From: Pratylenchus scribneri | Lineage: Eukaryota; Nematoda; Chromadorea; Rhabditida; Pratylenchidae | Reading direction: 5' to 3' | DNA length: 64,000 nucleotides | Assembly: GCA_030063045.1 (NCBI GenBank) | Contig: JAQSEB010000032.1 | Location: forward strand, 1,364,001-1,428,000 | Shown here: positions 9,313-61,888 of the stretch, piece by piece | Position numbering within the stretch: the first letter of the stretch is position 1 | Layout of the letters: every line of letters begins with the position of its first letter | Position numbers and translations under genes: made by a program | Notes under the pieces: generated by a model | The model's input: the letters and a program-made list of their open reading frames with translations, nothing else | Databases searched by the model: none | Told to the model about the DNA's origin: nothing

Positions 9313-9415
9313 CGGATATGCTTTTTCATTCTTGTTTCAAATATAATCTTTTTAACATGACATTATTTTATTTTTATTACTAATTTATTAAGTAATTTTG
9401 ATTTTATCCAGTAAA

Positions 9416-10386
9416 ATGTGTTTTCGTTTGCATAAACCATTTGAACTTATACAAAAATATGCGGACGGATTGGCAGTTATAATCATCAATAGTCCGAGGA
9501 CGGGTTTTTCCACTCCTCTGCGAACAATTTGGAACAATGCAAAAATCCGTCTTTGCACTGATGGAGCGGCAAATTTGCTTGTCGAATTATGTCGGTTTGT
9601 CAGAATATTTTATTAAACCAAAATGACTAAATAATTTGAAGGTCAAAAATAATGGAATATCCGGCAATAATTGTTGGCGATTTTGATTCAATTACGGAAG
9701 AGACAAAGAAATTTTTCATTGGACGATTACGGCATGAGCCCGATCAAGATAGCACAGATTTATCAAAAACATTGAAAGTTCTAATGGAGATGGTAAAAAT
9801 TAATTAAATAATTTAATTAAAAATTTATTTAGTTTCACAATCCGCAAGCTGAAATTGAGGGAATTCTTTTATTTGGCGGTCTCAATGGTCGTTTCGATCA
9901 TGTTCTCGCAACATTGAATTCAATGCTTTTGCAGGTAATATTTTGGTTGCCTAATTTATTTTTAATATTTTTATTCAGATTCAATCGCATCCGGATATCC
10001 CAATTTACGGATTGGATGATCAGAATTTTATTACAATTTTACCGCAGGTTAATAAATAATTGTTTATTATAAAATAATTTCTCCTTTTAGGGTGAATCAC
10101 ATTTCGAACTTTCAAAAGAACATTTGACCGGCAATTGCGGTTTACTACCAATTGTGCAGAAACGAACCATTGTGAACACAAACGGGCTGAAATGGGAACT
10201 AAGTAGGTTAAAACTAATTTTTAAATCATCATAAAATCCAATTTTTATTTTATAGATGAAACGGAACTCGAATATGGGAAGTTGGTGAGCACTTCAAATC
10301 ATATAATTCGGCCAGAACAATTACAAATCAAATCGAATGAACCGGTGGTCTTCACATTTGAACTGAAACCTAATGAAATGCTTTGA
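9416..10386 (+). CDS. tpk-1: thiamine pyrophosphokinase
   Basis: Transfers pyrophosphate from ATP to thiamine, making the cofactor TPP in the cytosol. Exons: 9416-9594, 9642-9792, 9833-9934, 9979-10047, 10091-10202 and 10256-10386 (247 aa, normal size). Motifs match human TPK1: CTDGAANLL, VGDFDSI, the DQDSTDLSKTLK metal/substrate motif, LFGGLNGRFDHVLATLN, then CGLLPIV and the C-terminal thiamine-pocket LVSTSNHI. The ATG at 9416 is four nt after a TTTATCCAG acceptor-like site; the in-frame TTG at 9398 lies upstream of that site and is not used. Poly(A) signal at 10469. Middle gene of the proposed operon, 192 bp before lsd1. Confidence 0.95.
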
Positions 10387-10577: not shown

Positions 10578-13500
10578 ATGTCCTCTGCTTCAAGTTTAAG
10601 CCTTTCACCTCCACCGGAAGAACGTGGAAATAATAATTATTATGGCCGATCAAGACGGCAAAATGTCGATTACGGTGTGCGAAATCAATTAATCTCCCAG
10701 CTGAATCGCCGTGAATTATATGGATTGGATGTGTACCGATGGGAGGACGACGATTTATGTAAAATTATTTAATAAATTAAAATGAATAAATTAAATAAAC
10801 AAATTAAATATAAATAAATAAATAAATTCAATAAATAAACTAATTAAATAAATAATTTAAAATTGAATTAAATAATTAAATTTACTAAATTAATTTTAAT
10901 GCTATTTTCAGCTTTACGCCATGCAGCTTCAAATGCTCGATTGCCTTATGACCGAATGACATTAAAAGAATTGGAAATATTCGCAGAAATGGCTCGTTCC
11001 CAAGCCAGCATCAACCTCTTCCTCTATTTACGAAATCGTATTTTGGTGCTTTGGCAATTGGATCCATTAATTGAATTAACTGTTGAAGCAATTCAAAAGG
11101 AAATTCCGGAGCCATACAATAGTAAAATTAATTATTTAAAATTAATTATTTAAAATTTATAAATTAATATTATTTAAGGTGATTACGAACTGGTCAGGGG
11201 CGTACACAATTATTTACAACGATATGGATATATCAATTTTGGAGTATTTTTGCGATTATCAAGTTAGTTAAACCGAAATATTTAATGGGAAAGATTTAAT
11301 TTGTTAAAACTAGAGACCGGCAAAATGCCTTTTGCCGGATTCCGGACCGGATTTTTTTTCCAAAATTTTTGCCGGATCGGATCCGGCCGGATAATCCGGC
11401 AAAAATCCGGCATCCGGATAATCCCGCAAATCCGGCAAAATCCGGTCCGGTGCCGGTCTCTAGTTAAAACATTGAAAATTTTGAAAAGAATTTTATTATA
11501 ATCAAAAAATCTCGTCAAGATGCAACACTTGATTATGTTTTGGTATTTGGTTTGAGTTTAAACCGTTTATAATACCATTTAATTTTGACACCAAACCATG
11601 ACAAATTATATACCATTCCATCGGACAGCCCAATTCAATGTTTGCGTAACATTAAATTAAACAATTAAATTGATTAGGGTTTATAAAGAAGATTTAAACA
11701 TTAAACTAAAAACGACATTTTTAGCTTAGTGGGTTAGTGCTTTTTCGTAAAATTTAAGTCCCGGGTTCGAACCCTCTCCGAGGCACATATTTTTTTATTG
11801 AACTTGTTTGTCATTTTTATCCGTTTTATGCATTATATTATGCAAATCTAGGCCAAAAACATTATTTAAACAAAAAAGTGGTACCCGAATTCTCTAGTTT
11901 TCGATGCGTCTTGAATATTCTACTTAATTATATAATTTTTATTATTATTTAGATAATATATTGGATAAACCGTATAAAATTGTGGTTATTGGGGCCGGGG
12001 CATCCGGTTTGGCTGCGGCACGTCAACTTAAATTCTTCGGCTTTGATGTGACCATTTTGGAAGGAAGGGTAAATTAATTTATTCATTTTATTATTTTTTA
12101 TAATATAATTTAAGCCACGAATTGGTGGCAGAGTTTACACAATTCGTCAACATGGATATCCGGCGGCCGATTCCGGAGGAATGATCATAAATGGAATCAG
12201 TAAATATTTTTAAAATTTATTAAATTGGAAAGAAAATCTTTATAAATTTAATTTAAAAATTGAATATTTTTAAATTTTATTATAAAATTTGAATATTTAT
12301 TTATTAATTTAATTTATTAAAATCTTTAAAATTTATTAAAAAATATTAATGGCCTTATTAATTGCGTTAGAATTTTTTTATTTCAGTTGGCAACCCTATT
12401 ATCACTTTGGTGCAACAAAATCTCTGCAATATTGTCAGGTAGGGAATTTGGCAATTTCTAGCAATTATTTGTAATCCAGCCTAACTGATCTTGAATCTAT
12501 TGGCCTAAATTTGAGATTTTTAATGCTTAACTTTATCACTTTAGCCCTATGCTCCGGTAATAACCTTACTCTAAGTTAGCTTTTATAAAATCAAAAAAAA
12601 AAAAAACATAGATCAATTAAGTTAAACTTTAAATCATTTTTAAATCAATTTTTATGGAAATATTTATAAATTAATTCTAATCTCTCAATTTGTCAAGGAT
12701 GAACAACAAATGTGCAATTTATGATGTACAAGAAAAATATCAAGGACAAGGAAAAATGGTGGAAGCTCGAAAAGATGATATGATGTAATTTATTTAATAA
12801 TTATTAATTAATATTTAAATTTACAGCCAAAAATCATTTAATCGAGTTTTGAGCACAATTTCCTATATTGTCCATGGATTGGGAATCACCGAAATTGGAG
12901 GCGATGAAAATGGGAAAGGAGCCAGAAAAATTAGTTTGGGAGAAGCATTTCAACTCATTTTAGAGTAATTTTATGAATTATTTTTTTAGTTAATTATTCA
13001 TCATTTTTAGCCAACATGAATTGAGGGTTCAAACAAGAAGATTTAATTATTGGAAAAAATATGAATTATTATGCAATAAATTGAAAGCAGCAATTGATAG
13101 GGTAAAACAGAGGGGGAAAATATCAAATTTTATTTTTTTAGACTAAAATTTGCCGAAGGGCAATTGGTGATTGTTTGGAACAAATTCGCAAAAATGGAAT
13201 CCCGAATTTGGCAGAGGCAACGCCAGAAATGGTACGGGAATTTTTGTGAAAATATTTTAATTGTTTTCAGTTATCAATAAATTTTGACGATTCTGTGCCA
13301 AAAGAAGAATTCAATCAAAAAATTGCAATTCGATGCCTTCGAAAATGTTTACAAATTGCCTTAAAAGTGGGTGGATTTTCATATAAATTTAATTCAATAT
13401 TTCGCGAAAAAGTTTTACAATTTAAGTCAATTTGGCTATTAGGCTTTAAATAATCCAATTTTGCACGAAAATTTATTAATATAATTTAACTGTTAATTAA

Positions 13501-16500
13501 TTAATATCCTTTAAATTCAGGAATTCGAGGAAGCGGACCAAGAAAGGAAGGACATTGAAAACATTTTGAGTGAATACAAAAATATGGAGCCAAGGTGGGA
13601 TATTCTCCTGCATCTTTTTAATGTGAATTCCTCTCATTTAGCCATGTTTTCATGAACAATGTCGACAAAAGAATTTTGGATTTCCATTTAGTAAATTTTA
13701 TTTAATTTTAATTAATTATCCAATTTTTTATTTATTTTTAATTAAAATTTTAATTTTTCAGGCCAATCTTGAATACGCTATTGGTGGACCACTTAGCTCA
13801 GTGGCACTGAAGGATTGGGACCAGGATGATCCATTCGGATTCGCCGGCTCTCATTTGACAGGTGGGAAAAATTATAATTTGAATTTTTTAAATTTTATTC
13901 AATAAAATTAAAATTTAAAGAATCGTTCGAAATATATTTTTGTAATTTTAATATTGAATCGAAAAATATTTGGTCCATTAATTCTTGAAATAATGTTTTG
14001 TGATTTTGATGTGAATTTGTGTACAATTTGAATATGTAAATGTGTGTTTGTGGCATGAATATACCCGTCTTTGGTTGATTTTGATGGTTTTAAATTGGGC
14101 AACAATTTGATTTTTTTTGTGTTGAAAGTCTGTGGAGTTTACAAAATGAGTAGGGAGCGGATTTTTAAAATTTATCAGATTTAATGAGATTTGAGCATTT
14201 ATTCAATTTTCTGACGTAATTGCAATTTTTGCGATCTGAAAATCCGCTCCCAAAAAATGAGAATACAATTTTACCACGTTTTATATTGAGTAACTGACTG
14301 GCATGGAAGTGTTTGGAAATGAGAGAAAAAATTGCAAAATGAGAATTGGGATGGAAAAGGCAAAATAGAAAATGTGAAAAATGTTGCTTAAGAGCACTTC
14401 ATGATTTATTGGGGCCTATTTTGGGGTTAGACAAAATCACTTGGAGCCGGCGGAATTTGTCCATATTCCGAATAAATATGCGATTGTGATGTTTCACTGC
14501 TGGGTGACGGATATCTGATCGGTGGGATGTCGCGTAGAAGCCTCTTCAAATCCTCCCAAAATTGGGGGCTATCTCTTCGTAAATATCCATCCCTGAGGAT
14601 GATTGACCCAATTTCAATTGGCAAATTGGCCAAATCCGTTTCATCCATGTCGTAGCCAACAATGAAGAGGATTCGCCTCGATTCATTCTGCTTTTTGTCC
14701 AGTTTGATGCTGCTCGTCAACTGTGGTCTATTCCAATCCAATCGCATGAATTCCCTGGACAAATACACAACCAGCATTCGGCTTTCTCCAATCAGCTTGA
14801 TCAGCTCATTGCTGATATAGACCGGGTCCTCTCGATAATATCCGCATTGATGGAGGTAGCAAAGAATGTAGCCGTAATTGAATTCCAAAGATCTGAAAAT
14901 ATAAAATTAAAATAATAAAATGGATAGAAATTAATTTCACTAACTTTTCATGTCGAAAAATCAAAATTTTTCGGCGGCCTTAAACTTGGCCAAATTGGGC
15001 TCATTTTAAGCCCTCTCCTACCTTAAGATTAACCCCAATCAAAAATGGCCATATAATATGGGCCAAGCAAAATGTTTATTTTTCGAAAATTCAACGATTT
15101 TTACCAGTAAATTTCTCTACTAAAAATGAATGCACCTGCAAAACTCCATGATAGCTTTCTCATCATTCTTCGTATAGCATATGAAAATGTCGCATTCATT
15201 CGGCAGAACATGTTGACTGCTTAATTCCGTCGGAATTGGACTTCCTCCGTTCACTGTCGGTGAATGAGTTGATGAGAGGGAATTGTTGTTGGTTGGAAGC
15301 AGTAATCCATTTTTCTCCTCTTGATTTCGTCCTTTTTCCTTCACATTTGTGAACCATTGTGGTCGAAAAGCGAACATCAACAAAATTGGGATGATCAGAA
15401 GGAGAATGGCCATAAGGAATGCGAACATCAATGTGTCATAGGGACCACCGAATCCAAAAATTCCATTGGTTTGAGCAACACAAATTGTTCTATAAATATT
15501 CGATAAATTCACTAATTAGGCACAAATGCCAACCTATTTTCATCGCTCAAAAATTCCAACATTAGCATTGTGAAAAGGTCATCGCCCTCATTTGGCAATC
15601 GCAATGAGAGGACAGTTGTGTCATTGGTTTTTTGTGCCCGAGTCACATTCTCCACGCATTTTAGCCATTCCGAATCCAATACACGCCATCGATTCCGGGC
15701 CAACCAATGTGGAATATCAAAACGTCCATTTGGGTAGCAATCACATCGAAACGGGTTTCCAGCCAAAGTTATTTTCCGTAATTGATCACCCGAAGCATTC
15801 TTTAAATTTAATTTTAAAAAAATAAATTTGAAATAAAATATACCCTCAAATATGTTGGCAATTCCTCGAGCAAATTCCCCTCCAAATGTAATTCCTCCAA
15901 ACGAGGTATCATTTCAAGGAGGTTGACATTTTTATTCCGGATTCGATTGTTTGCCAAATTCAACCGTCTTATATTTTGGATTGAGAAGCCTTCATCCCCA
16001 TTGATTTGTTCCAATTGATTATTTGCCAAATGAAGAGACTGAAAAATATATAAAATAAATTTTAAATTAAATCAAAAATTAATATTTTTAATTAAATATA
16101 TTATTTTATAAATTAATTTTTAAATATTTTTTCAGTGAAAGAAGGAATGAGTTCAGTAATGGAGCGACTCTCAAATGAATTGAAGATTGAATTGAATTCA
16201 GTGGTCAATTCCATCGAATACAACAATAAAGGAATCTCCGTAAAATACATAAAACAAGAAACTCATCAAGAAACAACTAAAACTGAAATCCACACGTTAA
16301 AGGTGACCAAAATATTATTAATCAAATACCAAATAATTAATTTGTTTAATTTAGGCGGATGCTGTCCTTTGCACAGTTCCTTTGGGTGTTCTAAAAAAGT
16401 CGCCATTTTTATCCGAAGCCGATGAACCAGATTCGGGTGCAATTCGCTTTCAACCCTCATTGCCTGGTCCAAACATAATATTTAATAATTAATTAAACAT

Positions 16501-17493
16501 TTTTTCAGCCTGGAAACGGGAGGCAATCGCCAGACTTGGCTTCGGCAATCTCAATAAACTAATCCTTTTCTTCGAAAAACCCTTTTGGGACGTCAACAAA
16601 TCCTCTTTTGGACGGCTAAATGATACATCGTGAGTTTTTTATTGGTGGGAAATTAAAGGGTTTTATTTGGTTGGGTTATATGAAAAATTTCCTTATCTTT
16701 AAAATTCCTTAATAAATATTTTAGCACTGCACGAGGTGAATTATTTCTCTTCTTCACAAACGGCGATTTGCCAATTCTGATTGGATTATTTGCCGGTGAA
16801 GCTGCAGCCGTCACAAGTCAATTAGAAGAGGAAATCATTGTACAGAGAGGAATGAAGGCATTGCATTCCATTTTTGGCAACATTTGCCCTGCAAAGGTGA
16901 ACGAAAACGTAACAAATTTTAATTCATTTTCCATTGTTTTAGCCAAAACATCACATAATAACTCGCTGGCATATGGACCGATTTTCACGCGGCTGCTACA
17001 GCTATATGAGTGCCAATTCCGTTGGTATGTTTAGAGGGGGGGATAAAACAGTTCATCAATTTATTTTACATTTTCAGCCGAAGACTATGATCTCCTCGCC
17101 AAGCCAATTCACCCAAATGAAAATGAATCGACCATTCCGCGTGTCTTCTTTGCCGGCGAACACACAAATCGCCAATATCCTTCATCCGTTCATGGCGCAT
17201 TCCTTTCTGGTCTTCGAGAAGCTGCTCGAATTGCCGAGTATTTGATTTCAGCCTCATTTGAATATATTTCCGCATTTTTTTTCAGCACATTTATTGGCAA
17301 ATTGTCTTTTTCTGGCCAAGAAATATGTCAAGAAGAGGTCGAATTGGCCATGAATTACAATGAACATTTGAATATTAGGGAAATGGCCGCCGGATCAAGT
17401 CGAAATCATCAACAACAAAATGGACGACAAAACTTTAATGCAGAAGAAACGAATAATTCATCGGACAATGATGACATTGAGATGTTGGAATGA
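10578..17493 (+). CDS. lsd1: lysine-specific histone demethylase LSD1/KDM1A (SPR-5/LSD-1 type)
   Basis: FAD-dependent nuclear demethylase of H3K4me1/2. Exons: 10578-10758, 10912-11121, 11179-11262, 11953-12068, 12115-12199, 12387-12438, 12698-12784, 12827-12964, 13011-13101, 13142-13231, 13271-13366, 13521-13594, 13642-13690, 13762-13861, 16136-16302, 16355-16466, 16509-16629, 16725-16896, 16943-17024, 17078-17237 and 17286-17493 (824 aa; sum divisible by 3). SWIRM domain about residues 50-158; FAD motif [16 protein letters not shown] about 167; a long helical Tower insert about 318-450; then [18 protein letters not shown]. The catalytic lysine lies in [10 protein letters not shown] and the C-terminal FAD motif is [14 protein letters not shown]. 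Splicing the 48 bp intron 17238-17285 gives IADTFIGKL like the human IADQFLGAM. The intron 13862-16135 contains the last tol-1 exons on the other strand. Confidence 0.95.
11310..11463. mobile_element. 154 bp inverted-repeat element (MITE-like) in lsd1 intron
   Basis: Ends are perfect inverted repeats CTAGAGACCGGCA...TGCCGGTCTCTAG, flanked on both sides by TTAAAA (11304-11309 and 11464-11469), a likely target-site duplication. The interior is filled with degenerate CCGGATAATCCGG/GCCGGAT words, far more GC-rich than the surrounding intron, and could fold on itself. It has no coding capacity beyond spurious frames. Confidence 0.75.
11716..11790 (+). repeat. tRNA-like / SINE-like fragment in lsd1 intron
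   Basis: A-box-like TTTAGCTTAGTGGGTTAG and B box GGGTTCGAACCCTCTCC spaced as in a tRNA, followed by CGAGGCA and then a T-rich tail. The acceptor stem does not pair. It matches the minus-strand fragment at 3013-3098 in both boxes. Confidence 0.55.
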
Positions 17494-20400
17494 AGTGGAT
17501 GGAGGAGAAATCAAAACAAATTTTTGGATTTTACTTTTGCATTTTTTACTTTTTTATTTGTAAAAATTTAAAATATGAAGTATTCTTTCAGCCTTTTTCT
17601 ACATCAAATTCTCCTTTTTATGCCTGAGAGGCAATTGGTGAAGGATAAGAGAGAAAAGGCTCCCTTTCCCTTCTATTGGTACAGTAATCATCACTCTTTG
17701 GAAAAAGAAAAGGCCCCCTTTGCCCTTTCCCTTCTATTGGTACAGTAATCATCACTCTTTGGAAAAAGAAAAGGGCTCCCTTCAATTGGTACAGTAATCA
17801 TCACTCTTTGGAAAAGAAAGGGCTCCCTTTTCCTATGCAAGATGCAACAAAGGAGGCCGCCATTCCTATTACAGTATGCAATTTCCCTTTTCAATCATTG
17901 CATTCCTCGAGGGAATTTTTATTTTAAGTATTAATAATAATTTTAATTTAATTTAACAATAATTTAAATGAAATTTCCTCACCTTTAAATTAATCAGCGT
18001 GTTGAATGCTTTTGGCTGAATCTTTTTGACTTTTGATGAATTGATGTGCAATTCAATGAGTCGATCTCTGCCGGCAAAAACATTTTCCCTTAGCAAAGGC
18101 AAATTCAAGTCGGAAAGGAGAATATGTGAAGCCATCATTGGCAACAATTCAAGCTGATCATTGCTACTGCTGCCACCTTCATTTTCGCCACCGCCAATCC
18201 GTCCCTTGCATTTGACCACATTTGTGATGGAATGCAAATCACGGAAACATTCACAGCCTTTTGGGCATTTTGATTTACAGTCGCAGTCACGGAAGAAGCA
18301 ACAAACGCATCCGGCCTCACAGAATTGGGTGTAAGGACACAGGAAATCGGTGGCCTTAAAAAGATGAAATTAGTAGGGTTATTTTGTTATTTCGGGAGAC
18401 CTCCGTTTCAATGATTGCCTTTCGCTTCCCATTCAACGGGGTCAAACAATCCACTTCACGAATGTCTTGAACACCACCTCCGCCAGTTGTTGTTGTTGAA
18501 TTTGCCACTCTCCATGGGATGCTCGCATTCAGCAGCCATCCCATTTCACAATTGCATTCTAGTGAATTCCCTGAAATATATTAACAGAATTAAATTATTG
18601 AGAATAATGGAAATAATTCTTGTTTTTCGGAAAAATGAAATTTTTCAGTAAAATTATAAATATTACTTATTTAATTTAAAAATTTTTTGAATTAATTTCT
18701 AGAGGACATTTATTGCATTATTAAATCGCATATCACTTCCCAAAATTGGCTATTGTCTCGCCCAGTTATGACCAATGACCAAAAGTAAGAGCCAGGTACC
18801 GGATTGGCAATAAAAGAATTCCCATTCAACTCACCGGCAATCCACATTCGCCCAAATGGGGCATTTGCCTCGATTGCCACTTCGTATAATTCCCTTGGAA
18901 TTGTGCGCAATCGATTCGAACGAAGATTGACCGATTTGAATTGGCCCATTCCATGGAAAGTGTTATTGGCCAATGTGGCCAATTCATTTTCACTCACATC
19001 CAATTCCTCCAATCCAAGTGGCAGGGAATCAGCCGAAAGACGTCCAATTCGATTTCTTTTCAACTGAAAATGGCCTTATATTTTTATTATTAAAGGGAAA
19101 ATTTGCCTCAAGTTTTCTCAATTTTCTTGCGCCAATTCCTTCCTCTCCATCCTCAAATCCATCCAAAGTGCCAATTCGTTCAATTCGATTCCAATTTGCA
19201 GAAATTTCCAACAATTCTGGCGGAAATTGTGTCCAATTCAACTGCAAAAAATTTCAATCATTTTAATTTATTTCGCCGAAAAAGAGAACATTCGGTTCGG
19301 CTATTTCAGTATCCTGGGCCATTCTTTTGGCCAAAACTCAACAAGGAAGTAATCAATTTAGGAAGGCGATATACCATTCGAAAGCCATAAAAGTTCTCTT
19401 AAAAGTGGCTTAATTAATTTTTGAAAATTTAAATCAACTTCTAAAATAATCGGCTTTTTCTCGAAAAATCCTGATTTATTAAACTTAAAGGCATATAATT
19501 TTTATATTTGCTAGATTTCATGAAATTAAACAAAGCCAAAATATAGAGGACATTTTAGGATTTCGAATGGTCTATCCCCTTCCCTACTTGGCTGTTGCCT
19601 CTCTGAGCTATAGCCAAAAGAATGGCTCAAGTACAGAATGGAATACTGTAACAGTAACCCTTTATCATTTTCTCACTTCTTCCAATGCATTGCCCGTCAA
19701 ATTCACAGTCCTCAATGTTTTCAAAAGAGTCAAAGATGGTCCAAGATTGGTGAGTTGATTTTGTGCCAAATCGATCCTCTTTAATTTTGGGCATTTCTCA
19801 AATGCGTCCGGACTGATTGTTTGAATTCGATTGGCCCTGAGGCTCAATTCCTGCAAATGGTCGCATTCCATGAACACAAAACTTTCCACTGATTCCAGTG
19901 CATTTTGACTAAGATCCAATCTGGCCAAATGTGGCAATTTGTTCAGTACAAATTTGTAGGCTTTTCTTTAAAATGAAAAAATATAAATTAGTTTTTAAAG
20001 TTAATTTACGAAATTTTATTGCCCGAAAGATCCATTCGCCGCACTCGAGTCAATCGGCCAACGGCCATTGGTAATTCAGTCAATTCATTTTGATTCTGAA
20101 AAAAATATAAAATTAAAAATTGGAAATATTTCATTTGTGTAAAAAAAGATTGTAGGGGTTCGGAAATTTATCTTACTTAGACTCGCAAACCTTAAATTCA
20201 ATCTAGATTATTTCCTCCTGTTTTGTGTTTTCGCTTAGAATAATTCCGCCTGTTTTGTGTTTTCGCTTAGAATAATTCCGCCTGTTTTGTGTTTTCGCTT
20301 AGAATAATTCCTCCTGTTTTGTGTTTTCGCTTAGAATAATTCCGCCTGTTTGTGTTTTCGCTTAGAATAATTCCGCCTGTTTTGTATTTTCGCTTAGAAT

Positions 20401-23400
20401 AATTCCGCCTGTTTTGTGTTTTCGCTTAGAATAATTCCGCCTGTTTGTGTTTTCGCTTAGAATAATTCCGCCTGTTTTGTGTTTTCGCTTAGAATAATTC
20501 AGCCTGGTTAATATTTTCGCTTAGAATAATTCCGCCTGTTTGTGTTTTCGCTTAGAATAATTCCGCCTGTTTGTGTTTTCGCTTAGAATAATTCCGCCTG
20601 TTTGTGTTTTTGCTTAGAATAATTCCGCCTGTTTTGTGTTTTCGCTTAGAATAATTCCGCCTGTTTGTGTTTTCGCTTAGAATAATTCCGCCTGTTTGTG
20701 TTTTCGCTTAGAATAATTCCGCCTGTTTGTGTCTTCGCTTAGAATAATTCCGCCTGTTTGTGTTTTCGCTTAGAATAATTCCGCCTGTTTGTGTTTTCGC
20801 TTAGAATAATTCCGCCTGTTTGTGTTTTCGCTTAGAATAATTCCGCCTGTTTGTGTTTTCGCTTAGAATAATTCCGCCTGTTTGTGTTTTCGCTTAGAAT
20901 AATTCCGCCTGGTTAATATTTTCGCTTAGAATAATTCCGCCTGTTTGTATTTTCGCTTAAAATAATTCCGCCTGTTTGTATTTTCGCTTAAAATAATTCC
21001 GCCTGTTTTGTGTTTTCGCTTAGAATAATTCCTCCTGTTTTGTGTTTTCGCTTAGAATAATTCCGCCTGTTTTGTGTTTTCGCTTAGAATAATTCCGCCT
21101 GTTTGTGTTTTCGCTTAGAATAATTCCGCCTGTTTGTGTTTTCGCTTAGAATAATTCCGCCTGTTTGTGTTTTCGCTTAGAATAATTCCGCCTGTTTGTG
21201 TTTTCGCTTAGAATAATTCCGCCTGTTTTGTGTTTTCGCTTAGAATAATTCCTCCTGTTTTGTGTTTTCGCTTAGAATAATTCCGCCTGTTTTGTGTTTT
21301 CGCTTAGAATAATTCCGCCTGTTTGTGTTTTCGCTTAGAATAATTCCGCCTGTTTGTGTTTTCGCTTAGAATAATTCCGCCTGTTTGTGTTTTCGCTTAG
21401 AATAATTCCGCCTGTTTGTGTTTTCGCTTAGAATAATTCCGCCTGTTTTGTATTTTCGCTTAGAATAATTCCGCCTGTTTTGTGTTTTCGCTTAGAATAA
21501 TTCCGCCTGTTTGTGTTTTCGCTTAGAATAATTCCGCCTGTTTTGTGTTTTCGCTTAGAATAATTCAGCCTGGTTAATATTTTCGCTTAGAATAATTCCG
21601 CCTGTTTGTGTTTTCGCTTAGAATAATTCCGCCTGTTTGTGTTTTCGCTTAGAATAATTCCGCCTGTTTGTGTTTTTGCTTAGAATAATTCCGCCTGTTT
21701 TGTGTTTTCGCTTAGAATAATTCCGCCTGTTTGTGTTTTCGCTTAGAATAATTCCGCCTGTTTGTGTTTTCGCTTAGAATAATTCCGCCTGTTTGTGTTT
21801 TCGCTTAGAATAATTCCGCCTGTTTGTGTTTTCGCTTAGAATAATTCCGCCTGTTTGTGTTTTCGCTTAGAATAATTCCGCCTGTTTGTGTTTTCGCTTA
21901 GAATAATTCCGCCTGTTTGTGTTTTCGCTTAGAATAATTCCGCCTGTTTGTGTTTTCGCTTAGAATAATTCCGCCTGGTTAATATTTTCGCTTAGAATAA
22001 TTCCGCCTGTTTGTATTTTCGCTTAAAATAATTCCGCCTGTTTGTATTTTCGCTTAAAATAATTCCGCCTGTTTTGTGTTTTCGCTTAGAAAATTTTAAT
22101 TATTTTGGTATTATTATTCTTTTTTATTCTCTATTTCATATTTTTTTGGCAAATTAAATATCGATCCATTTAAAAATATTAAATATTTACCATAATAAGT
22201 GTATGCAAATTTGATGCCAATGTTTGGAAAACTTCCGCATCAATTTTTCCAATGGAATTGTTGGCCAAATTGATCAAGGCCAAATTGGAAAGGCCTTCGA
22301 ATGTGTTGAATTCCAAAGTGAATAACCGATTCGAGGAAATATCCAACTGCAAATTTAATAGAATTATTCATTTTGTCCCAATATAGATTTGCCTCTTGTA
22401 AGGAAGTCAAATTCTGAAGGCTTTCAGCCTCAATTCGGTCAATTTTATTCCCAGCCAATTTCAATGTTTTCAATGAATCCGCCGATTCGGTAAAAATTTC
22501 CAATGGCATTCGTTCAAACAAATTCCAGGACAAATCCAATTGTTCAATGGCGGAACTTTGCAAACTCTAAACAATAATGGAAAATAATTCATTTTTTTTC
22601 AAGAATTATTTTACAATTTTTGCTTGTCCAATTTCATTTCCACTCAAATTTAGTCGTGTCAATCCGGCCAATTGGGCAATGGAATCAGGAATTTGTTGAA
22701 AATGATTGGAGGCAGCATCCAAATGGATGAGTCCTTCGGGAAGGCCGGAGGGCACATCCGAAAGGCGATTGGAGGAAATGTCCAAATGCTGGAGCAGAGG
22801 GACTGGGCCAGAACGGAAAGCATCCGGCTGGATCTGGAAATGGATGAAAGGTGGATGAATTGTTAAATTTTGGGACACAATTGTTTGGATGACATTGCTT
22901 ATAAACTTCCAACCCATCTTAATGGTCTAATTTACTCCAAAACTTGAGTTATATTCCAAAATTTGATTAAAAACAATTTTGGGAGTGCCAACTTGTCGCC
23001 GTTTATAATAATTGATCCAGGAATGAACGAATTTTGATAATTTTATAATTAAATTAAAAAGCTTATTGCTGGCTATCAAATAATATTAATTTTATTTAAA
23101 TTGGTTCAGTATTGATGAAAATGTGCCAAAAAAAAATAATGGAAAATTTCGCTAATCCATAGTAAAGGTCATTTTAAATTGTTTTTGAGTAAAAGTTCAT
23201 CAATTCCGAACCAATTAAATAAAATTTCTATCACTGGATAGCCAAAAGTCTGCTCTTTAATTTATTAACAAAAATGTTAAAATTAATTCTGTCCTTAAAG
23301 TATTAGCGGCAAATTGGCCAAAGGAAGTTGAATTCATTCATCTGAACCATATTTGCAAAATTTCATGGTCAAAAAATTTTGTAAATGCTTCAAATTTAAG

Positions 23401-26400
23401 CTCACCTCGACCATTCCATTTGAGGCAAGATTCAATTGAGCAAGTACGGGGAATGGGCGAAGATCTTGTTCCGCCAAAATGTGAATGGAATTGGAGGAAA
23501 TATCCAAAATGATTAATTGATTAAATTGACATGGCTGATCGGCGGGTCTGGGCATGAAAATGCCAAGTCGCGCGGATTGGAGAGAATTGCCAGATAAATT
23601 GAGCACCTAAATGGCCGAATTGGATGAAACATTAATTAATTGGCTTAAAATTGAAATTGACTTGAAGCTGTTGAAGATGGCAAATTCCATCGCCCGGCAA
23701 TTCCCTCAGTCCATTTTCAGACAAATTCAACATTTCTAATTTGGCCAAAGGCGCAAAGAAATTTGGCTCAATCCGTTGGAGTGATGGCATTTTGGTGAGG
23801 GACAATGAACGAAGATGGGGGACAGAATTGAGGAATAAGTCACCGGCCAAATAGTCAGTTTGGCATCCCTAAAGATGGAATATTTTTACTGAATTTTTGC
23901 CATTTTTGTGCTGACCACAATTTTCAATTCCCTCAATTCGTCGAATCCTTGGAATGTTCCTGCTTTGGTCAATGGATTTTCTTCTCTTTCAGTCGAATTT
24001 GGCATTTTTGTGCATTGAATTAGCAGCGATTTTGTCCCATTTTTGGGAAAATCATCAAAGGAATTTGGCCCTAGTAAATTCCATTGGCACGAAACAATCA
24101 TCAATTCAATAGAAGATGGGTCCGGCACACAACGGCATCTGTCAATGAAGCCGAAAATGTTTTTTAATGATATTTATCCAAATAGGAAAATTTCCCTTAT
24201 AAATTTTTTCCCATATAATTCCCCCTCAATAAAGATGCTTCAATGCCATCTATTGCTAGGACCCGCATTAAATTTTTGGCCATAACTCAGCGAGGCATTA
24301 GCCAATTTTGGAAGGCGGTAAGCCATTTGAAAGCCCAAACATCCCTTTATAATTTGGCCTTTTTGAATTTTATGAATTACAAATTTTAAAAAATTTACTG
24401 ACCTTTGAGTGTGAAAAATTCGAATTTTTGGAGGAAAAGCCGCTTATTCCAAAAAATATTTAAATTTTCAAGAATCAATAAAGGCTACTTTTTATAGGAC
24501 ATTTAGGGCTTTTAAATGGCATATTGCCTTCCAAAATTGGTTATCGCCTCGCTGATCTATGGACAAAAGAATGGAACAAGTATTGAAGGTAGCATTAGAA
24601 TCTTATTTTGCCAAATTCAATTGAAATTTCACACCAAATTTTCCCATTATTAATTTTTTCCATGCCTCTGAATTTATTTTGGTTCAATTTCATTCCATAT
24701 AGAATATTTTTATGCCCTGCCACCTCCCCTCTAGCCATTGAATTTCCATATTATATTAAATTTCCGCTCAATTTGCCCCTCACAATTTCCAATTTCCATC
24801 CATCAATGAATTCAATTCGAAAGGGGAGAATGGACAATTTTGGTTGGGTGAAGTGGACAACAACCAAATGAATGAATGAATGAATGGATGGCACTTTAGG
24901 GGAGATTAAAACACGAAATGACACTTTCCCCCTTCCCTCCTCCCCTCTATTCCCCCTCATCAATTCGTCGTTCAATTTTGCCAAGTGGCCCGTCGAACAA
25001 ATAAAAATTGGGAAGAAAGGGAAGAGAAGGGCCAAATAAGGGAATATTCCTTTCAATTTTAATGGAATAAATTTTTGAGAAAATCGGCAAAATGGGGGAA
25101 TATTGCGTTTAATGAAGCGGAAAAATTGGCAATTTTCTTTTACAAAAAAAGGCACAAATCAATGTTCAATCCCCTCACAAAAACCACCTTTTTGAGGTAT
25201 TTTCCCATGTTTTACCCAAAAATGGTGCCCTCCATTCATTCATTCATTTTCCATTCTCCACCGAATACATTAATCGCCCCTTTCCCCCAATCAGCAGCAG
25301 GGGAGGGGAAGGAGGCATTCAGCCGTGCGCATAAATCGGCCTTTTCAAAAAGGGTAATGTAAATGGTTGGATGGGGGGAAAGGCAAGGTGGTCGAGTCAA
25401 AGACAAGAGAAAAGTGGCGAAAATGGCGGCGAGAATTGTGCCGAAATATGGGGCGATTGGAATGGAAGAAGGGGAAATTAGGGGGAAAATATTGAATATT
25501 TGACAATATTTGGAAGGAATTTTGGAGGGAATTTAATTGAGAAATTATTCAAAATTTTATGAAATAAAATGAACCAATTTCCCCTTTAAATTATTACAAT
25601 TTTGACATTTTCCTTAAAGTAAAATTGATGCCTCCATTTGTGAATCCATAATAATTTTTCCTTTCCCATTCCCTTCCACTTTTATGAGATTCCACTCCAA
25701 AAATGTTGAATGATGATGAGAAGGCGGAAAGTCCTCTTTGAAATGTGCGAGGGAGAATGATGACCCTTTGGGGGCGCATAAATCCAGAACAGAGGGAGGG
25801 CAAAAAGGGTGTGGGCATTTCCCTGGGGGGATGATTTTATGATGGGGAGGGGGGATGGGGATAATGGCTAATGAGAGCTAAAATGGGACAAAGAGGGAAT
25901 AATGGATGGAATGGATGAAGTGGATTTAGCTTTTAAGGTTGCAGAATTTAGGCCAGAATATGCTAGGAAAATAAAGGCATTTTTTATAAGGGACAATTGC
26001 CAATTAGTCCTACAAAAGTGGCTCTCACTAAATCCTATTTTATTTCTACTAAATTTACTCTGTTCCTATAAATAAGAAGAAGGGGAGAATACGGTATCGG
26101 CACTTGATTGAAATTGAGTGAGAGCACAAAATGATTTGTGCCTCTAGCCATGAAATTAAACAAAGCACCATTATCGTTCCTTCTACCATAACTCAATAAA
26201 GTAATAACCAATTTGAGAGGGGGATATGCCATTCGAAAGCTCTGAAATTCCTCTAAAAAGTGGCTTAATAATTTTTGGAAAATTTAAACATCTTATAGAA
26301 AAGGCGCTTTGTCTCCAGAAATGCGAGTCTATTATACATAAAGATATTTAACTTTTTAAAAGGTGAAATATATCAAATAAATAAGCCAAATAAGCCACTT

Positions 26401-26760
26401 TGTAGAGGACAATTTTGGCTTCCAAATGATATATCGCCTTCTCAGATTGGTTATTGCCTCGCTGAGCTATGGACCAAAAACCCTTACCCATTTTATCCCT
26501 CTTCCACTCTCCCTATTCATATTAATTTGCCACCCATTTTGCTTTCCATTTTTCCCATTAAATTTAAATAATAAATATAAATATAATTAATCGCACCCTT
26601 GTGGGCATTGATATCGAAAGAGAATATTGCTGCCACTGCCTTTGCCTTGGTGTTGTGCCAATTCCGCAATTTGTCGCCTTCGATGATGTGATGGCCTTTG
26701 TGGATTGTTGGTGGCCAATAAATGAACAATTTGGGAGGAAATGAGAAGAAAAATGAACAT
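14427..26760 (-). CDS. tol-1: Toll-like receptor (TOL-1)
   Basis: Type I membrane receptor with leucine-rich repeats and a cytoplasmic TIR domain. Exons on the minus strand: 26597-26760, 23916-24138, 23662-23868, 23406-23606, 22615-22833, 22393-22566, 22191-22346, 20010-20095, 19677-19965, 19107-19241, 18835-19063, 18401-18570, 17983-18354, 15844-16038, 15534-15799, 15136-15489 and 14427-14892; 1,301 aa in one frame. Order: signal peptide (MFIFLLISSQIVHLLA), LRRNT CPQGCRC at about 51, many LRRs, LRRCT (CNCEMGWLL) about 700, the Toll-specific block FLCPYTQFC...CDC...CPKGCECF about 755, further LRRs, a second LRRCT ([11 protein letters not shown]), TM about 1046-1068, TIR from CDIFICYT (about 1128) with FW box 3. 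The BB-loop RDxxPG is replaced by YREDPVYI. Introns 6 and 10 have GC-AG borders. Introns carry foldback elements and a minisatellite. Last four exons lie inside an lsd1 intron. Confidence 0.95.
17657..17835 (+). repeat. short tandem repeat (3 units, ~55-70 bp)
   Basis: Three near-identical units built around ATTGGTACAGTAATCATCAC followed by TCTTTGGAAAA and a CCCTTT-rich spacer of varying length. It lies about 160 bp past the lsd1 stop and within tol-1 intron 16039-17982 (antisense). Confidence 0.85.
19319..19624. repeat. foldback element family A, copy 1
   Basis: Left arm CATTCTTTTGGCCAAAACTC..., right arm ending GAGCTATAGCCAAAAGAATG. Inner landmarks are GATATACCATTCGAAAGCC and AAAGTGGCTTA. 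In the tol-1 intron between exons 9 and 10. Confidence 0.8.
20205..22092 (+). repeat. minisatellite array 1 (31-32 bp unit), tol-1 intron
   Basis: About 60 head-to-tail units made of TTCCGCCTGTTTTGTG plus TTTTCGCTTAGAATAA; the run of three or four T before GTG gives 31 or 32 bp. Rare variants GGTTAATATTTTCGC at 20502/20911 recur at 21568/21977, both offset by exactly 1,066 bp, showing a higher-order duplication. It fills most of tol-1 intron 20096-22190. Confidence 0.97.
22986..23310. repeat. foldback element family B, copy 1
   Basis: Left part CAACTTGTCGCC... with GGCTATCAAATAATATTAAT and TTGGTTCAGTATTGATGAAA; right part reverse-complementary with GAACCAATTAAATAAAATTT and GGATAGCCAAAAGTCTGCTC. 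In the tol-1 intron between exons 4 and 5. Confidence 0.7.
24271..24574. repeat. foldback element family A, copy 2
   Basis: TTTTTGGCCATAACTCAGCG at the left and GCTGATCTATGGACAAAAGA at the right, with palindromic arms. In tol-1 intron 1. Confidence 0.8.
26091..26178 (+). repeat. dispersed repeat adjoining family A copy 3
   Basis: Segment starting GAGAATACGGTATCG and ending TAGCCATGAAATTAAACA recurs at about 39165-39255, each time followed by a family A element. The interior ACTTGATTGAAATTGAG is shared. Confidence 0.65.
26179..26481. repeat. foldback element family A, copy 3
   Basis: Arms CTACCATAACTCAATAAAG and GCCTCGCTGAGCTATGGACC; inner GATATGCCATTCGAAAGCTC and AAAAAGTGGCTTAATAA. In tol-1 intron 1. 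Confidence 0.8.
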
Positions 26761-46800: not shown

Positions 46801-49800
46801 TATAATTTAAAGTGTTCAACAATATGGAATGGATGCAATTTGTGTTAGAAAGAGATGGACATGGAGGAATTAGCCTGAATGTGGACGATCAAAATTGCCA
46901 AATTGGAGGGCCAATTTTGATGAATGCCAATGGGAAAGAAGTCAGCAATATGGAAGGAGAAAATGGAGGAAAATCATCAGAAGAATATGGTAATAAAAAT
47001 ATGATAGAAAAATGCCCAAATAATTTATGCAAAATTTGAAGAAGATGCCATCCTTCCGCCGGTGCCACTTTTTGCTGGCCAATCCCAAATTCGGCCACCA
47101 TTTAATTTCCTTTTCATCGGCAGATTGCCTCGAGCCACTCGAACAAAGCGGAGGGGGAAAAAGACAGAGAAACGGTAATTTTTTGACATTTCAGTACCGT
47201 ACTCGGGTTTTTGCCATAGTTCAACGAGAAAGCAAATAATTTAGAAAAGTAATATTGGAAAGATTTAAAGCACTGTTAAAATGGCTTTTCTGATAAATTT
47301 AAAAAAGCTTGGAGAAATTTTAAATAAGCTGTCTTTCCTAAAAAATCTGATTTAGCACATTCAATAGTTAAAATTTAATTATCTCATTTTAATAAGGCTT
47401 TCAATGTTCTATCGCCTTCCAAAATTTATTATCGCCTCGCTAGGATATAGTCAAATCAAAACTCAAAAGTGGATCTTTGTATTGAATAGTCCTCTATCGG
47501 ATTTTTTGTTAATTTAAAAATTTTATTTCCTTCACAGAATGCCACTTTATGTGAGCAATATTCCCCCATTGAAAGGATGCATTCGAGGCCTTTTAATTGA
47601 TGGAGAAAAGTTGGATTTGAGGGAAATTGTCGAAAATGGTACGAACATTCTTGGCCGAATTGAAGGAGTCCAAATTGGATGTGAGCAAATTGGAAGGGAA
47701 TGTGAAGAATTGAATTGCCAAAATAGGGGCAAATGCCAGGTGAAAATTGTGATGAAGAAAACACGAACACATTTTATTTTAGGTGAATTGGCATTTGGCC
47801 GAGAAATCTGTGCAATGCGATTGCAGCACAACATCCTTTGGAGGGCAGAATTGCACGGAAGGTAAGAGGGACTAAAGATATAAGGGACAATTCAATACCT
47901 GCATCAATTTTGGTCTATAGAACAGCGAGACAATGGTCAATCCATTGCCTCGCTATTTTTAGGAAGGTGATAAACCATTGTAAAGCCCAAAGTGTCCTCT
48001 AAAAAGTAGCCTTTTTAAATTTTATGAATTCAGGCTTTTAAAAAGTTAAATCTAGAATTTTTGGAGGGAATGTCACATGAAGAAAAGTTGTTTCTTTATT
48101 TTTGTTCTTAATAAAAATAAATTTGCCACTTTGGATATTTAAGGTTATCTAATGGTATCTCCCTTAATTGGTTTCTTCCTCGTTGAATTATGATCAAAAG
48201 AAGGATCTAGCTATAAAGAATAGAGTCCCATTTCATAGTGTAAAGATATTTAAATGCAATAACAATTCACAGATATTGGCATCGAATTCCCCGGCCACTC
48301 CTCCATTATCTTCGATTTGGCCCATCCAAAACGGTTTTCATTCCTTGGCGATAGTGAACGACAAACATTGTCGTTTTCCTTCAAAACTACCCAAAATGAT
48401 GACAGCAAATGGCCACAACAATTGGCCACAATTTATTTTGAGGATGGCCATCAAATTCAAATTCAATTGGGAATAAATGGCACATCATTTTTGGCGTTTG
48501 GAATATTCCCCAAAAATGGATCATCCGTGCCCATTTCAATTCATAAATTTGATGGCACCAACTTTACCGATGTTTTTTCTAATAATTTAAATTCCTTTCA
48601 ATTTCCCCCTTTCAAGGGCCATCGACATTTCTTCCGGGCTCATTTCTTCTCTAGAAAATCGCCACTAATTATGTTGGATGGATGGCGGCATCAATTCAAT
48701 AGATTAGAGGGGCCATTGAGTTTGGCAAATGCAAAAATGTTTTATTTTGGTGGAAAAGCTGAAATAGAAGAGGAAGCGGAGGGAAGCGAAGAAAATGGGG
48801 AGGAAATGGAAAACAATAGAAAAAGGTAAAAATGTGCAGGGGAATGAATGGAAAGGAATTATTTGGAAAATTTAGTGAAGAAAATGAGAAAATTGGGACG
48901 AAATTTGAAGCTGAAAATGAATCAACGACAACAGTGAATGAATTAAAAGAGAAGGTAGAACAAGCAGAAAATAATCAACCAAATACAGTAAATGTGCCGG
49001 AGCAAATTTTGCTATCGGATGCAATGCGCGAAATAATGGCAAAAAGGCGAAGGGCAACATTGATAGATGGGGGGAATGGAACGGTGGATCAAAATAATGA
49101 ATTGGTTGAAGAAAATGGAGAGGATGAAAAGCAGAAGGAAGAAAAGGAGAAGAATAAAAAGGATGAAAAAGAAGAAAAGAATGAACTGGAGAAGGATGGG
49201 GCAAAGTGGCCAAGAAGGGTTCATTATTTTGAGGGCATCATTTCAAGTAAATCTATTGTCATTTTCTATCATTCCCTCCCAACTTGAAAAAAGATGTGGC
49301 CATCGAATTTGAAAGAGAATCATCATCATCTCCTTCCAACGTTCTTCGTTTCACGCCTTTGCTCTATTATCTTCAAGAGGAGGAATTCCTGCATCGAAGT
49401 ATACGCACTGATCCATTGGATCTTCCTGGAGGAAAATTATTGCCGGCTTCCGCTGGGCCATTCCCTTTACCGCCCAAGCCAATTCCCCGTATGTTTTTAT
49501 AGGTTGGCGCTGGTTTTAACTAAATTTAATTCCGCCTTTTTGTGTTTTCGCTTACTTAGTTAGAATAATTCCGCCTCTTTTGTGTTTTCACTTAGAATAA
49601 TTCCGTCTCTTTTGTGTTTTCGCTTAGAATAATTCCGTCTCTTTTGTGTTTTCGCTTAGAATAATTCCGCCTGTTTTGTGTTTTCGATTAGAATAATTCC
49701 GCCTGTTTTGTGTTTTCGCTTAGAATAATTCCGTCTCTTTTGTGTTTTCGCTTAGAAAATTCCGTCTCTTTTGTGTTTTCGCTTAGAATAATTCCGTCTC

Positions 49801-61346: not shown

Positions 61347-61494
61347 TTTTAATTAATTTCCAACTTTGAATATGCTTGGAACAAAAATAATTTTGGTCTG
61401 TTATTCGCGCAAAAAAAAATTGATTAGATTTGATACTCAAATTTCTTCAACACATTATCCAAAAGAAAATTAAATAAAAAAAATTTTGGTTAGA

Positions 61495-61888
61495 TAAATT
61501 CCGCCTGTTTTGTGTTTTCGCTTAGAATAATTCCGCCTGTTTTGTGTTTTCGCTTAGAATAATTCCGCCTGTTTTGTGTTTCCGCTTAGAATAATTCCGC
61601 CTGTTTTGTGTTTTCACTTAGAATAATTCCGCCTGTTTTGTGTTTTCGCTTAGAATAATTCCGCCTGTTTTGTGTTTTCACTTAGAATAATTCCGCCTGA
61701 TTTAAGAATAATTCCGCCTGTTTTGTGTTTTCGCTTAGAATAATTCCGCATGATTTAAGAATAATTCCGCCTGATTTAAGAATAATTCCGCCTGTTTTGT
61801 GTTTTCGCTTAGAATAATTCCGCCTGTTTTGTGTTTTCGCTTAGAATAATTCCGCCTGTTTTGTGTTTTCACTTAGAATAATTCCGCT
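61495..61888 (+). repeat. minisatellite array 3, downstream of ttx-3
   Basis: About 12 units of the same repeat in the same orientation, interrupted three times by a shortened GATTTAAGAATAATTCCGC variant. Confidence 0.95.

Follow-up and report, generated by a model that had tools for sequence, protein, structure and literature searches.

Can two large genes on opposite strands each house the terminal exons of the other, and if so, is the arrangement intact, shared with related species and of consequence for either gene? The question is raised by a 64,000-nucleotide stretch of the Pratylenchus scribneri genome (the window), in which the 3' end of lsd1 (+ strand) lies inside one intron of tol-1 and the 3' end of tol-1 (- strand) lies inside one intron of lsd1. 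Read along the + strand, the 5' half of lsd1 is followed by the 3' half of tol-1, the 3' half of lsd1 and the 5' half of tol-1, with the following features:

10578..17493, + strand: predicted histone demethylase gene of the lsd1/spr-5 type, 824 aa in 21 coding exons (exon assembly, Pfam, LSD1 alignment)
13862..16135, + strand: lsd1 intron 14, phase 1, GT-AG, 2,274 bp, housing the last four tol-1 exons
16136..17493, + strand: the seven terminal exons of lsd1, which encode the second half of the amine oxidase domain
16136-16302, 16355-16466, 16509-16629, 16725-16896, 16943-17024, 17078-17237 and 17286-17493, + strand: the lsd1 exons within the tol-1 intron
17238..17285, + strand: in-frame lsd1 GT-AG intron, 48 bp (kept in contig C92; homology)
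14427..26760, - strand: tol-1 gene, 17 coding exons (exon assembly, ectodomain alignment, Pfam)
26597..26760, - strand: first tol-1 coding exon, with ATG and hydrophobic leader (signal peptide), reading ...FRYQCPQ|G (donor GTGCGATT)
16039..17982, - strand: tol-1 intron, GT-AG, 1,944 bp, frame kept, housing the last seven lsd1 exons
14427..16038, - strand: last four tol-1 exons, with the last LRRs, LRRCT, transmembrane stretch and TIR (Pfam TIR)
16038-15844, 15799-15534, 15489-15136 and 14892-14427, - strand: the tol-1 exons within the lsd1 intron
14405..14410, - strand: AATAAA, starting 17 bases past the tol-1 stop and lying within the lsd1 intron; a likely poly(A) signal of tol-1
16039..16135, no strand: AT-rich spacer, 97 bp, with the splice acceptors of both long introns in opposed orientation (sequence)

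The coding spans share 14427-17493 (3,067 bp), in agreement with the overlap of about 3 kb first proposed, and this region holds 1,281 bp of tol-1 exons and 1,022 bp of lsd1 exons with no coding base common to the two genes. The original prediction placed four terminal tol-1 exons in the lsd1 intron and seven terminal lsd1 exons in the tol-1 intron, and the coordinates of both sets were verified in the sequence. The count of seven needs the 48-bp intron, removal of which gives RIADTFIG, matching RIADQFLG of LSD1; its retention gives six exons and also leaves the frame open. All 20 introns of the lsd1 model are GT-AG, as are 14 of the 16 tol-1 introns, the other two being GC-AG. The long lsd1 intron runs from GTGGGA to TTTTTCAG, and the long tol-1 intron, read on the - strand from 17982 to 16039, starts with GTGAGGAA and ends with TATTTTTCAG. 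Both reading frames close across these introns, as had been claimed, and the joined proteins align gap-free through the junctions to solved relatives.

The gene names of the original prediction are right at the family level, according to Pfam and structure alignments, the TIR assignment being weak. The lsd1 protein consists of a SWIRM domain (Pfam 1e-13, 51.7 bits) that precedes an amine oxidase domain (1.8e-77, 262 bits) split by a tower insert. In a single alignment stretch (query 61-762, E 1.1e-159) the joined protein matches LSD1 structure 2x0l_A, which we take to be human LSD1; the alignment is gap-free over the focal junction (FEFTGSHLTVRNG in 2x0l_A), and the tower-like insert region is aligned with gaps. 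The protein is closer to LSD1 than to LSD1B (9.7e-63) or MAO and resembles nematode spr-5, one match (P0017) being named spr-5 of Pristionchus pacificus. These similarities place it in the LSD1/KDM1A (spr-5) family as a predicted H3K4 demethylase.

The tol-1 protein is laid out as LRR - LRRCT - LRRNT - LRR - LRRCT - TM - TIR. Its first coding exon connects via a 2.46-kb intron to the exon at 24138, and the remaining exons run down to 14427. Residues 1-987 of the joined protein match the TIR-protein ectodomain 8suf_A (E 3.2e-152), gap-free across the junction LINLK|SLHL, and the LRR ectodomain has the internal LRRCT-LRRNT cysteine cluster, with CPYTQFCEAGCVCCFFRDCDCKSKCPKGCECF included in the 8suf_A alignment. 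A single transmembrane stretch, judged by eye from its hydrophobicity, is followed by a TIR that is recognized narrowly: Pfam TIR (PF01582) gave a weak match to the C-terminal 272 aa only (22.4 bits, cut-off 21.3), the Pfam scan of the 1,246-aa model gave no TIR match at E<=0.001, none was found in a six-frame scan, and solved TIR structures matched at E 0.033-0.65 only.

Each gene would be transcribed from its own upstream promoter, and each pre-mRNA would carry the terminal exons of the other gene, in antisense, within one long intron, from which they would be spliced away. Discarding of the foreign exons is to be expected, splice and poly(A) signals being readable on one strand only. Between the lsd1 stop and 17982 no AATAAA is present, and of six hexamers tried only AATGAA at 17967 was found.

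An interleaving of this kind might be produced in an assembly if pieces from two genes that lie apart were stitched together out of order. Chimaerism is possible in any single contig, and the published assembly has 41.4% duplicated BUSCOs with many genes in multiple copies (PMC10138993). It was built with PacBio HiFi reads after removal of those below 5 kb (PMC10138993), a length sufficient to span the 4.1-kb focal region. An artefact needs three breakpoints, all of them intronic and all preserving both frames, and the identical three joins are found on an independent contig, C92, which carries a second copy of the interleaving (C92:229293-232360; 94% identical, order and strand unchanged). 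In this copy splice dinucleotides are kept at all 21 lsd1 exons and at the 16 tol-1 exons tested, including the donors and acceptors of both long introns, and both frames are open. The window contig and C92 are collinear for about 50 kb, the aligned blocks having 86-97% identity (blast rows of at least 200 bases that lie within 12 kb of the diagonal). Both genes are complete, and neither the window nor the C92 stretch contains N bases. The argument against misassembly is upheld, and the second contig makes it stronger than the window sequence could by itself; misassembly is effectively excluded, and wrongly ordered pieces are an extremely improbable explanation.

The two copies have diverged at synonymous sites (dS 0.17 for lsd1 and 0.14 for tol-1), and dN/dS between them is 0.036 for lsd1 (822 codons) and 0.084 for tol-1 (1,243 codons, exon 1 left out), falling to 0.015 in the 3' part of tol-1 (2 nonsynonymous and 34 synonymous changes). 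The second copy of both genes is under purifying selection. The donor of tol-1 exon 1 (GTGCGATT) is identical in C92. The start codon differs between copies: the ATG is at 26760 in the window, and the C92 in-frame ATG at 240204 gives a predicted N-terminus that is nine residues longer and begins differently. It is highly probable that lsd1 and tol-1 are two independent, intact and conserved opposite-strand genes that are reciprocally interleaved, with an ancestry and origin that we infer.

The argument on ancestry concerns the break points of database protein models, not the genomic DNA of those species. The Meloidogyne enterolobii LSD1 model P0011 ends with GSHIT followed by GKF..., and the Ditylenchus dipsaci LSD1 model P0037 with GSHMM followed by GGS..., each at the homologous phase-1 junction. 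Similarly, the M. enterolobii tol-1 fragment P0174 (249 aa) starts MFFQ|ALHLSGNN, exactly at the homologous tol-1 junction, and this MFFQ may be read as a translated acceptor tract (ttttttcag). P0174 also ends early, past the transmembrane stretch and before any TIR, and interleaving gives no explanation for this second break. The alignment of the LSD1 junction took 15 of 120 listed proteins (556 found), with P0014, P0015, P0016 and P0018 left out; 13 pass the junction, among them P0009, which stops 37 residues beyond it, and 2 stop there. P0009 is Meloidogyne-like and 81% identical to P0011, with the exons joined as GSDIT-VKEG; its frame and that of P0007 run through the junction uninterrupted (contigs of 2,387 and 2,329 bases). 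For TOL, 7 of 53 matches were examined at full length, as was one (P0174) of the 63 matches of a separate search. Among the models examined, none from Meloidogyne represents a tol-1 5' half or an LSD1 3' half. The cyst nematode LSD1 models P0001-P0005 are unbroken, and in D. destructor both genes are represented by full-length models, neither of them split. Scanning bacterial and archaeal genomes with the LSD1 alignment yielded 50 pattern matches, none of them a relative.

Truncated models might also mean that the halves are separate genes (LSD1 N-half, LSD1 C-half, TOL ectodomain and TOL TM-TIR), with premature polyadenylation in the long introns. In-frame stops are indeed found past both long-intron donors, each long intron has an AATAAA soon after its donor, 40 bases in for lsd1 (13901, + strand) and 60 bases in for tol-1 (17923, - strand), and the LSD1 models of Meloidogyne and D. 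dipsaci are truncated likewise, the Meloidogyne tol-1 fragment beginning at the acceptor. Against this, both P. scribneri copies retain the donor and acceptor of each long intron together with frame and phase, and P0009 and P0007 join the exons across the LSD1 junction. Moreover, half an amine oxidase would hardly fold by itself. Fission is accordingly very unlikely, and truncated isoforms alongside the full message are possible. Gene predictors seem to cut the interleaved genes of M. enterolobii and D. dipsaci at these introns; losses of the oxidase half or the TIR half are therefore not to be inferred from databases with truncated LSD1 or Toll models.

The neighbourhood of the two genes differs among nematodes. 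Locus tags of LSD1 and TOL are four apart in Steinernema carpocapsae (L596_008450 and 008446) and three apart in Steinernema hermaphroditum (QR680_008720 and 008717), and in D. destructor both matches are assigned to a 259,914-bp contig. The genes are on separate contigs in Mesorhabditis spiculigera (1,169,076 and 2,201,695) and in Heterodera schachtii (589,942 and 2,954,855 bp), and because of the latter lsd1-tol-1 linkage is not universal.

Judged from the model break points, the interleaving is probably older than the genus Pratylenchus. That Meloidogyne shares it seems reasonably probable, our confidence having been lowered slightly by the early 3' end of P0174, and it would then predate the Pratylenchus-Meloidogyne split. 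It is tempting to speculate further that the common ancestor of Pratylenchus, Meloidogyne and Ditylenchus already had the interleaving and that it has acted as a lock, in that a simple breakpoint would destroy both genes, so that a neighbourhood as close as that in Steinernema became inseparable and H. schachtii represents an escape. This proposal is tentative, at slightly less than even confidence, and was marked down a little for the early end of P0174. If it holds, cyst nematodes, in the form of H. schachtii with its separate contigs, would show how the lock is escaped. Alternatively, the interleaving could be confined to Pratylenchus and the split models of Meloidogyne and Ditylenchus could reflect ordinary long introns or poor annotation. 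The unbroken cyst nematode LSD1 models favour such a restriction, and the 3' break of P0174 before the TIR speaks for poor annotation and made this explanation slightly more credible; however, the M. enterolobii LSD1 end and tol-1 start fall exactly at both homologous introns (of 20 and 16), and D. dipsaci LSD1 ends at the identical LSD1 intron. Restriction to Pratylenchus is less likely than not. P. scribneri has the interleaving in two diverged copies, and several plant-parasitic genera probably share it.

With regard to origin, the interleaving would derive from ancestrally neighbouring genes, and the simplest route would be that a block containing both 3' halves was duplicated in tandem and complementary halves were then lost. 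Remnants of such a duplication were sought by blastn among 13862-14426, 16039-16135 and 17494-17982 and against both 3' halves, and by tblastn of the two 3' protein halves (best E 0.36); none was convincing in 13862-14426 or 17494-17982. The best blastn matches (E 8e-7 for 16039-16135 with 17494-17982, and 2e-5 for 13862-14426 with 17494-17982) are short and AT-rich, and their orientation is inverted. In the direct orientation, which the duplication model predicts, the best matches were 48-52 bases, AT-rich, at E 1e-4 (16039-16135 with 13862-14426) and E 0.003 (13862-14426 with 17494-17982). These AT-rich matches are taken as probable chance, and the proposed duplication and loss is conceivable but unsupported by remnants.

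It is conceivable that the interleaving was retained because it couples the two genes, through antisense interference or dsRNA between the pre-mRNAs. About 3 kb of predicted pre-mRNA is complementary and the pairing of the genes seems long-lived, but their coding exons do not overlap, the H. schachtii pair is on different contigs, and persistence is equally explained by the simple inability to separate interleaved genes. A P. pacificus study found the expression of antisense genes embedded in introns to be uncorrelated with that of their hosts (PMC4994411). Coupling is thus improbable, and the functional connection of an immune receptor to a chromatin regulator that the original prediction implies is unsupported.

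The lsd1/tol-1 interleaving is real and ordinary in kind, and unusual in its likely conservation. The pair is a fresh case of an already known kind of gene overlap and no new type of system. By the placement of their exons both genes fit the antisense 'nested' class of PMC4994411, in which exons lie within introns on the opposite strand and the gene is not wholly embedded. That paper counts 49 such pairs in P. pacificus among 1,112 antisense overlaps overall and describes them as a class, naming, in the part available, neither lsd1/tol-1 nor its reciprocity or conservation (PMC4994411). The vps-4/npr-23 and sel-2/mab-21 pairs of nematodes are likewise long-conserved antisense neighbours located in a long intron, but there, as far as that part shows, one gene is wholly within one intron, non-reciprocally (PMC4994411). 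Convergent overlapping pairs of Metazoa are similar in having opposite strands and overlapping 3' ends; the scheme of partial (convergent, divergent) and complete (nested, embedded) overlap does not, in the sections available, set apart reciprocal placement of terminal coding exons (PMC2330155). The Drosophila genes Dync2h1 (btv) and CG5674, called 'strongly mutually nested', each have parts inside the other; these are other genes, from an insect, and the likeness is one of description in the available text, not of exon pattern (PMC10556659). This was the one useful case retrieved from the open-licence PMC literature for interleaved, interdigitated or mutually nested genes; there, no paper was found with 'spr-5' and 'tol-1' together, or with all four of tol-1, Toll, TIR and plant-parasitic nematodes, and no reciprocal case was found in the available parts of PMC2891614 and PMC4528330. 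The lsd1/tol-1 pair is a clean and checkable case of two large conserved genes housing each other's terminal exons, and can serve to examine how interleaved genes come about and whether they lock gene order.

The noncoding block 13862-14426 is identical between the copies at 543 of 555 aligned bases and was considered as a candidate hyperconserved element. It was rejected as a feature of its own: noncoding blocks of at least 40 bases from 10578 to 20095 range from 0.70 to 1.00 in identity, RNA folds of 14042-14426 are not unusual (z -1.08 on the - strand, -0.71 on the + strand), and the window has no match to Rfam families at the gathering threshold. The low-divergence tract 14021-14699 (4 substitutions) extends from noncoding into coding DNA, a pattern expected from gene conversion.

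The histone demethylase gene lsd1 (lsd1/spr-5 type) and the Toll-type receptor gene tol-1 are reciprocally interleaved on opposite strands. When both genes were rebuilt from raw sequence, each was found to place its terminal exons within an intron of the other, as the original prediction had it: the last four tol-1 exons lie inside lsd1 intron 13862-16135, and the last seven lsd1 exons inside tol-1 intron 16039-17982. The parts of the locus are as follows.

10578-17493, + strand: lsd1, 21 exons, spliced frame of 824 aa
26760-26597, - strand: tol-1 first exon, hydrophobic leader and start of the cysteine-rich cap, FRYQCPQ/GCRCVPD across the junction
24138 to 14427, - strand: tol-1 exons beyond the first, 16 exons
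16039-16135, both strands: AT-rich spacer of 97 bases, with the acceptors of both interleaved introns back to back

In the rebuilt model the first 14 lsd1 exons end at 13861 and the remaining seven start at 16136, and GT-AG borders were found in 20/20 introns. The tol-1 introns comprise 14 GT-AG and 2 GC-AG introns, the - strand exons preceding the GC donors having their last bases at 22393 and 19107. A passage of the Globodera rostochiensis paper describes an elevated GC/AG intron proportion as apparently restricted to Heteroderidae (PMC4901422); the GC-AG introns seen here are in a Pratylenchus gene. The two long introns measure 2,274 (lsd1) and 1,944 bases (tol-1), and the coding exons of the two genes have zero bases in common.

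Pfam scores the lsd1 product at 51.7 bits for SWIRM and 262 bits for Amino_oxidase, and LSD1 structure 2x0l_A aligns to it in a single stretch, residues 61-762, ungapped at the 13861/16136 junction. In the tol-1 product Pfam finds a long LRR array, and the Toll-type ectodomain structure 8suf, which we take to be C. elegans TOL-1, aligns to residues 1-987, spanning the 17983/16038 junction (INLK/SLHL) and an internal LRRCT-LRRNT cluster. The TIR domain is divergent: a scan restricted to the C-terminal 272 residues put it at 22.4 bits (cut-off 21.3), and it was absent from the Pfam listing at E<=0.001 for a longer tol-1 model, gave no match in a six-frame search of the genome, and matched solved TIR proteins only at E 0.033-0.65. 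Among the matches listed, the closest named full-length LSD1 proteins are from Heterodera trifolii (58%) and G. rostochiensis (55%); the protein relatives agree with a tylenchid.

Misassembly, against which it had been argued beforehand, is excluded for practical purposes, as a second contig of the same assembly, C92, carries the interleaving with splice sites and frames intact. It was found by searching the whole assembly (227,248,964 bases, 276 contigs) with 14400-17520 as query. The published description of the assembly (227.24 Mb, 276 contigs, HiFi reads, <5 kb removed) calls it diploid, with 41.4% duplicated BUSCOs (PMC10138993). The second copy is full-length and 94% identical, with order and strand as in the window, and the C92 stretch is collinear with window positions 1-50869 (identity of aligned blocks about 86-97%). 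Splice dinucleotides are kept at 21/21 lsd1 and 16/16 tol-1 exons tested, both GC donors included, and both frames are open up to the stop codon. The donor of the first tol-1 exon is retained; its start codon is not, an in-frame ATG elsewhere giving a predicted N-terminus nine residues longer. Between copies, dS is 0.174 and dN/dS 0.036 for lsd1, against 0.141 and 0.084 for tol-1 (exon 1 left out of the count). Of the four parts compared, the 3' part of tol-1, with the TIR, shows the lowest dN/dS (0.015; 2 nonsynonymous vs 34 synonymous changes). The interleaving is kept in two diverged copies, which may be haplotypes or homoeologues, with both genes looking functional. One tract, 14021-14699, differs by 4 substitutions and no gap over 679 bases, noncoding and coding, against a dS of ~0.14, and looks like local gene conversion.

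Database models of other nematodes bear on the age of the arrangement. Of 15 LSD1 proteins aligned, out of 120 listed matches, 13 cross the lsd1 junction and two end at it: P0011 from Meloidogyne enterolobii (11 cluster members; ...GSHIT then GKFLIQ...) and P0037 from Ditylenchus dipsaci (...GSHMM then GGSLTF...). The residues just past both breaks fit a translated phase-1 donor (G/GT...). P0174, a 249-aa M. enterolobii Toll protein (7 cluster members), starts with MFFQ followed by ALHLSGNNLKRINGDE, exactly where the P. scribneri exon at 16038 starts, and its MFFQ reads as a translated splice acceptor tract. All three truncated models are broken at introns homologous to the interleaved ones. 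We infer that predictors barring overlap of opposite-strand genes would cut an interleaved pair at exactly these two introns. The M. enterolobii LSD1 break looks like an annotation effect because P0009, a Meloidogyne-like protein 81% identical to P0011, has the exons joined over it, ending 37 residues on. P0174 also stops early, past the transmembrane stretch and before any TIR, for which interleaving gives no explanation. Meloidogyne is fairly likely to have the interleaving in common with P. scribneri; for Ditylenchus this is possible.

In Ditylenchus destructor the LSD1 and TOL matches both list a 259,914-base contig, and locus tags are close in Steinernema carpocapsae (L596_008450 and L596_008446) and S. 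hermaphroditum (QR680_008720 and QR680_008717); a close neighbourhood, by contig and locus-tag proximity, therefore seems to predate Pratylenchus. Against old linkage, the two genes lie on separate contigs in Heterodera schachtii (589,942 and 2,954,855 bases) and likewise on different contigs in Mesorhabditis spiculigera.

Each gene would be transcribed from its own promoter, Pol II passing through the partner's exons in antisense, and the long introns would be removed by splicing; splice and poly(A) signals being strand-specific, the partner's exons would go unseen. The tol-1 AATAAA begins 17 bases past the stop, inside the lsd1 intron, and among the six hexamers tried the only lsd1 poly(A) candidate is a variant AATGAA at 17967. 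A + strand AATAAA at 13901 lies 40 bases inside the lsd1 intron, and a putative short LSD1 message is therefore conceivable. Functional coupling of the two genes is unsupported. The arrangement could have arisen by tandem duplication of a block with both 3' halves; if one lsd1 half and the opposite half of tol-1 were then lost, the present order would follow directly. A search for remnants of this at the locus found only short AT-rich matches.

This kind of overlap is already known, since excerpts of the respective papers describe 'nested' antisense pairs in Pristionchus pacificus (PMC4994411), a class known in nematodes, and Drosophila Dync2h1 and CG5674 as strongly mutually nested (PMC10556659). 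For the lsd1/tol-1 pair, its two-copy preservation or its likely sharing among plant-parasitic genera, no description was found in open-licence papers; the pair offers an interesting likely history for a known sort of overlap.

The locus also carries repeats. A minisatellite with a 31-32-base unit of about TTAGAATAATTCCGCCTGTTTTGTGTTTTCGC lies in a tol-1 intron at 20204-22095, where it runs to about 60 copies, and recurs at 49560-50506 and 61490-61887. A 26-base probe matches the genome exactly 2,330 times in forward and 2,156 times in reverse orientation (control 0). An additional array in C92, at 242545-243081, falls at the point where the window blocks 29122 and 29128 meet. The inverted repeat GGGAGCGGATTTT ... 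AAAATCCGCTCCC at 14153-14248, inside the lsd1 intron and downstream of tol-1, showed up in RNA folds that are no better than shuffles. A dispersed repeat in a tol-1 intron (14893-15026) occurs at at least 22 other genome places (73-85%), a lower bound drawn from 30 matches besides the two full copies. Past the lsd1 stop, a 61-base tandem repeat (17662-17830) differs in length between the window and C92. Upstream, + strand reading frames at 9392-10386 presumably resemble thiamine pyrophosphokinase.
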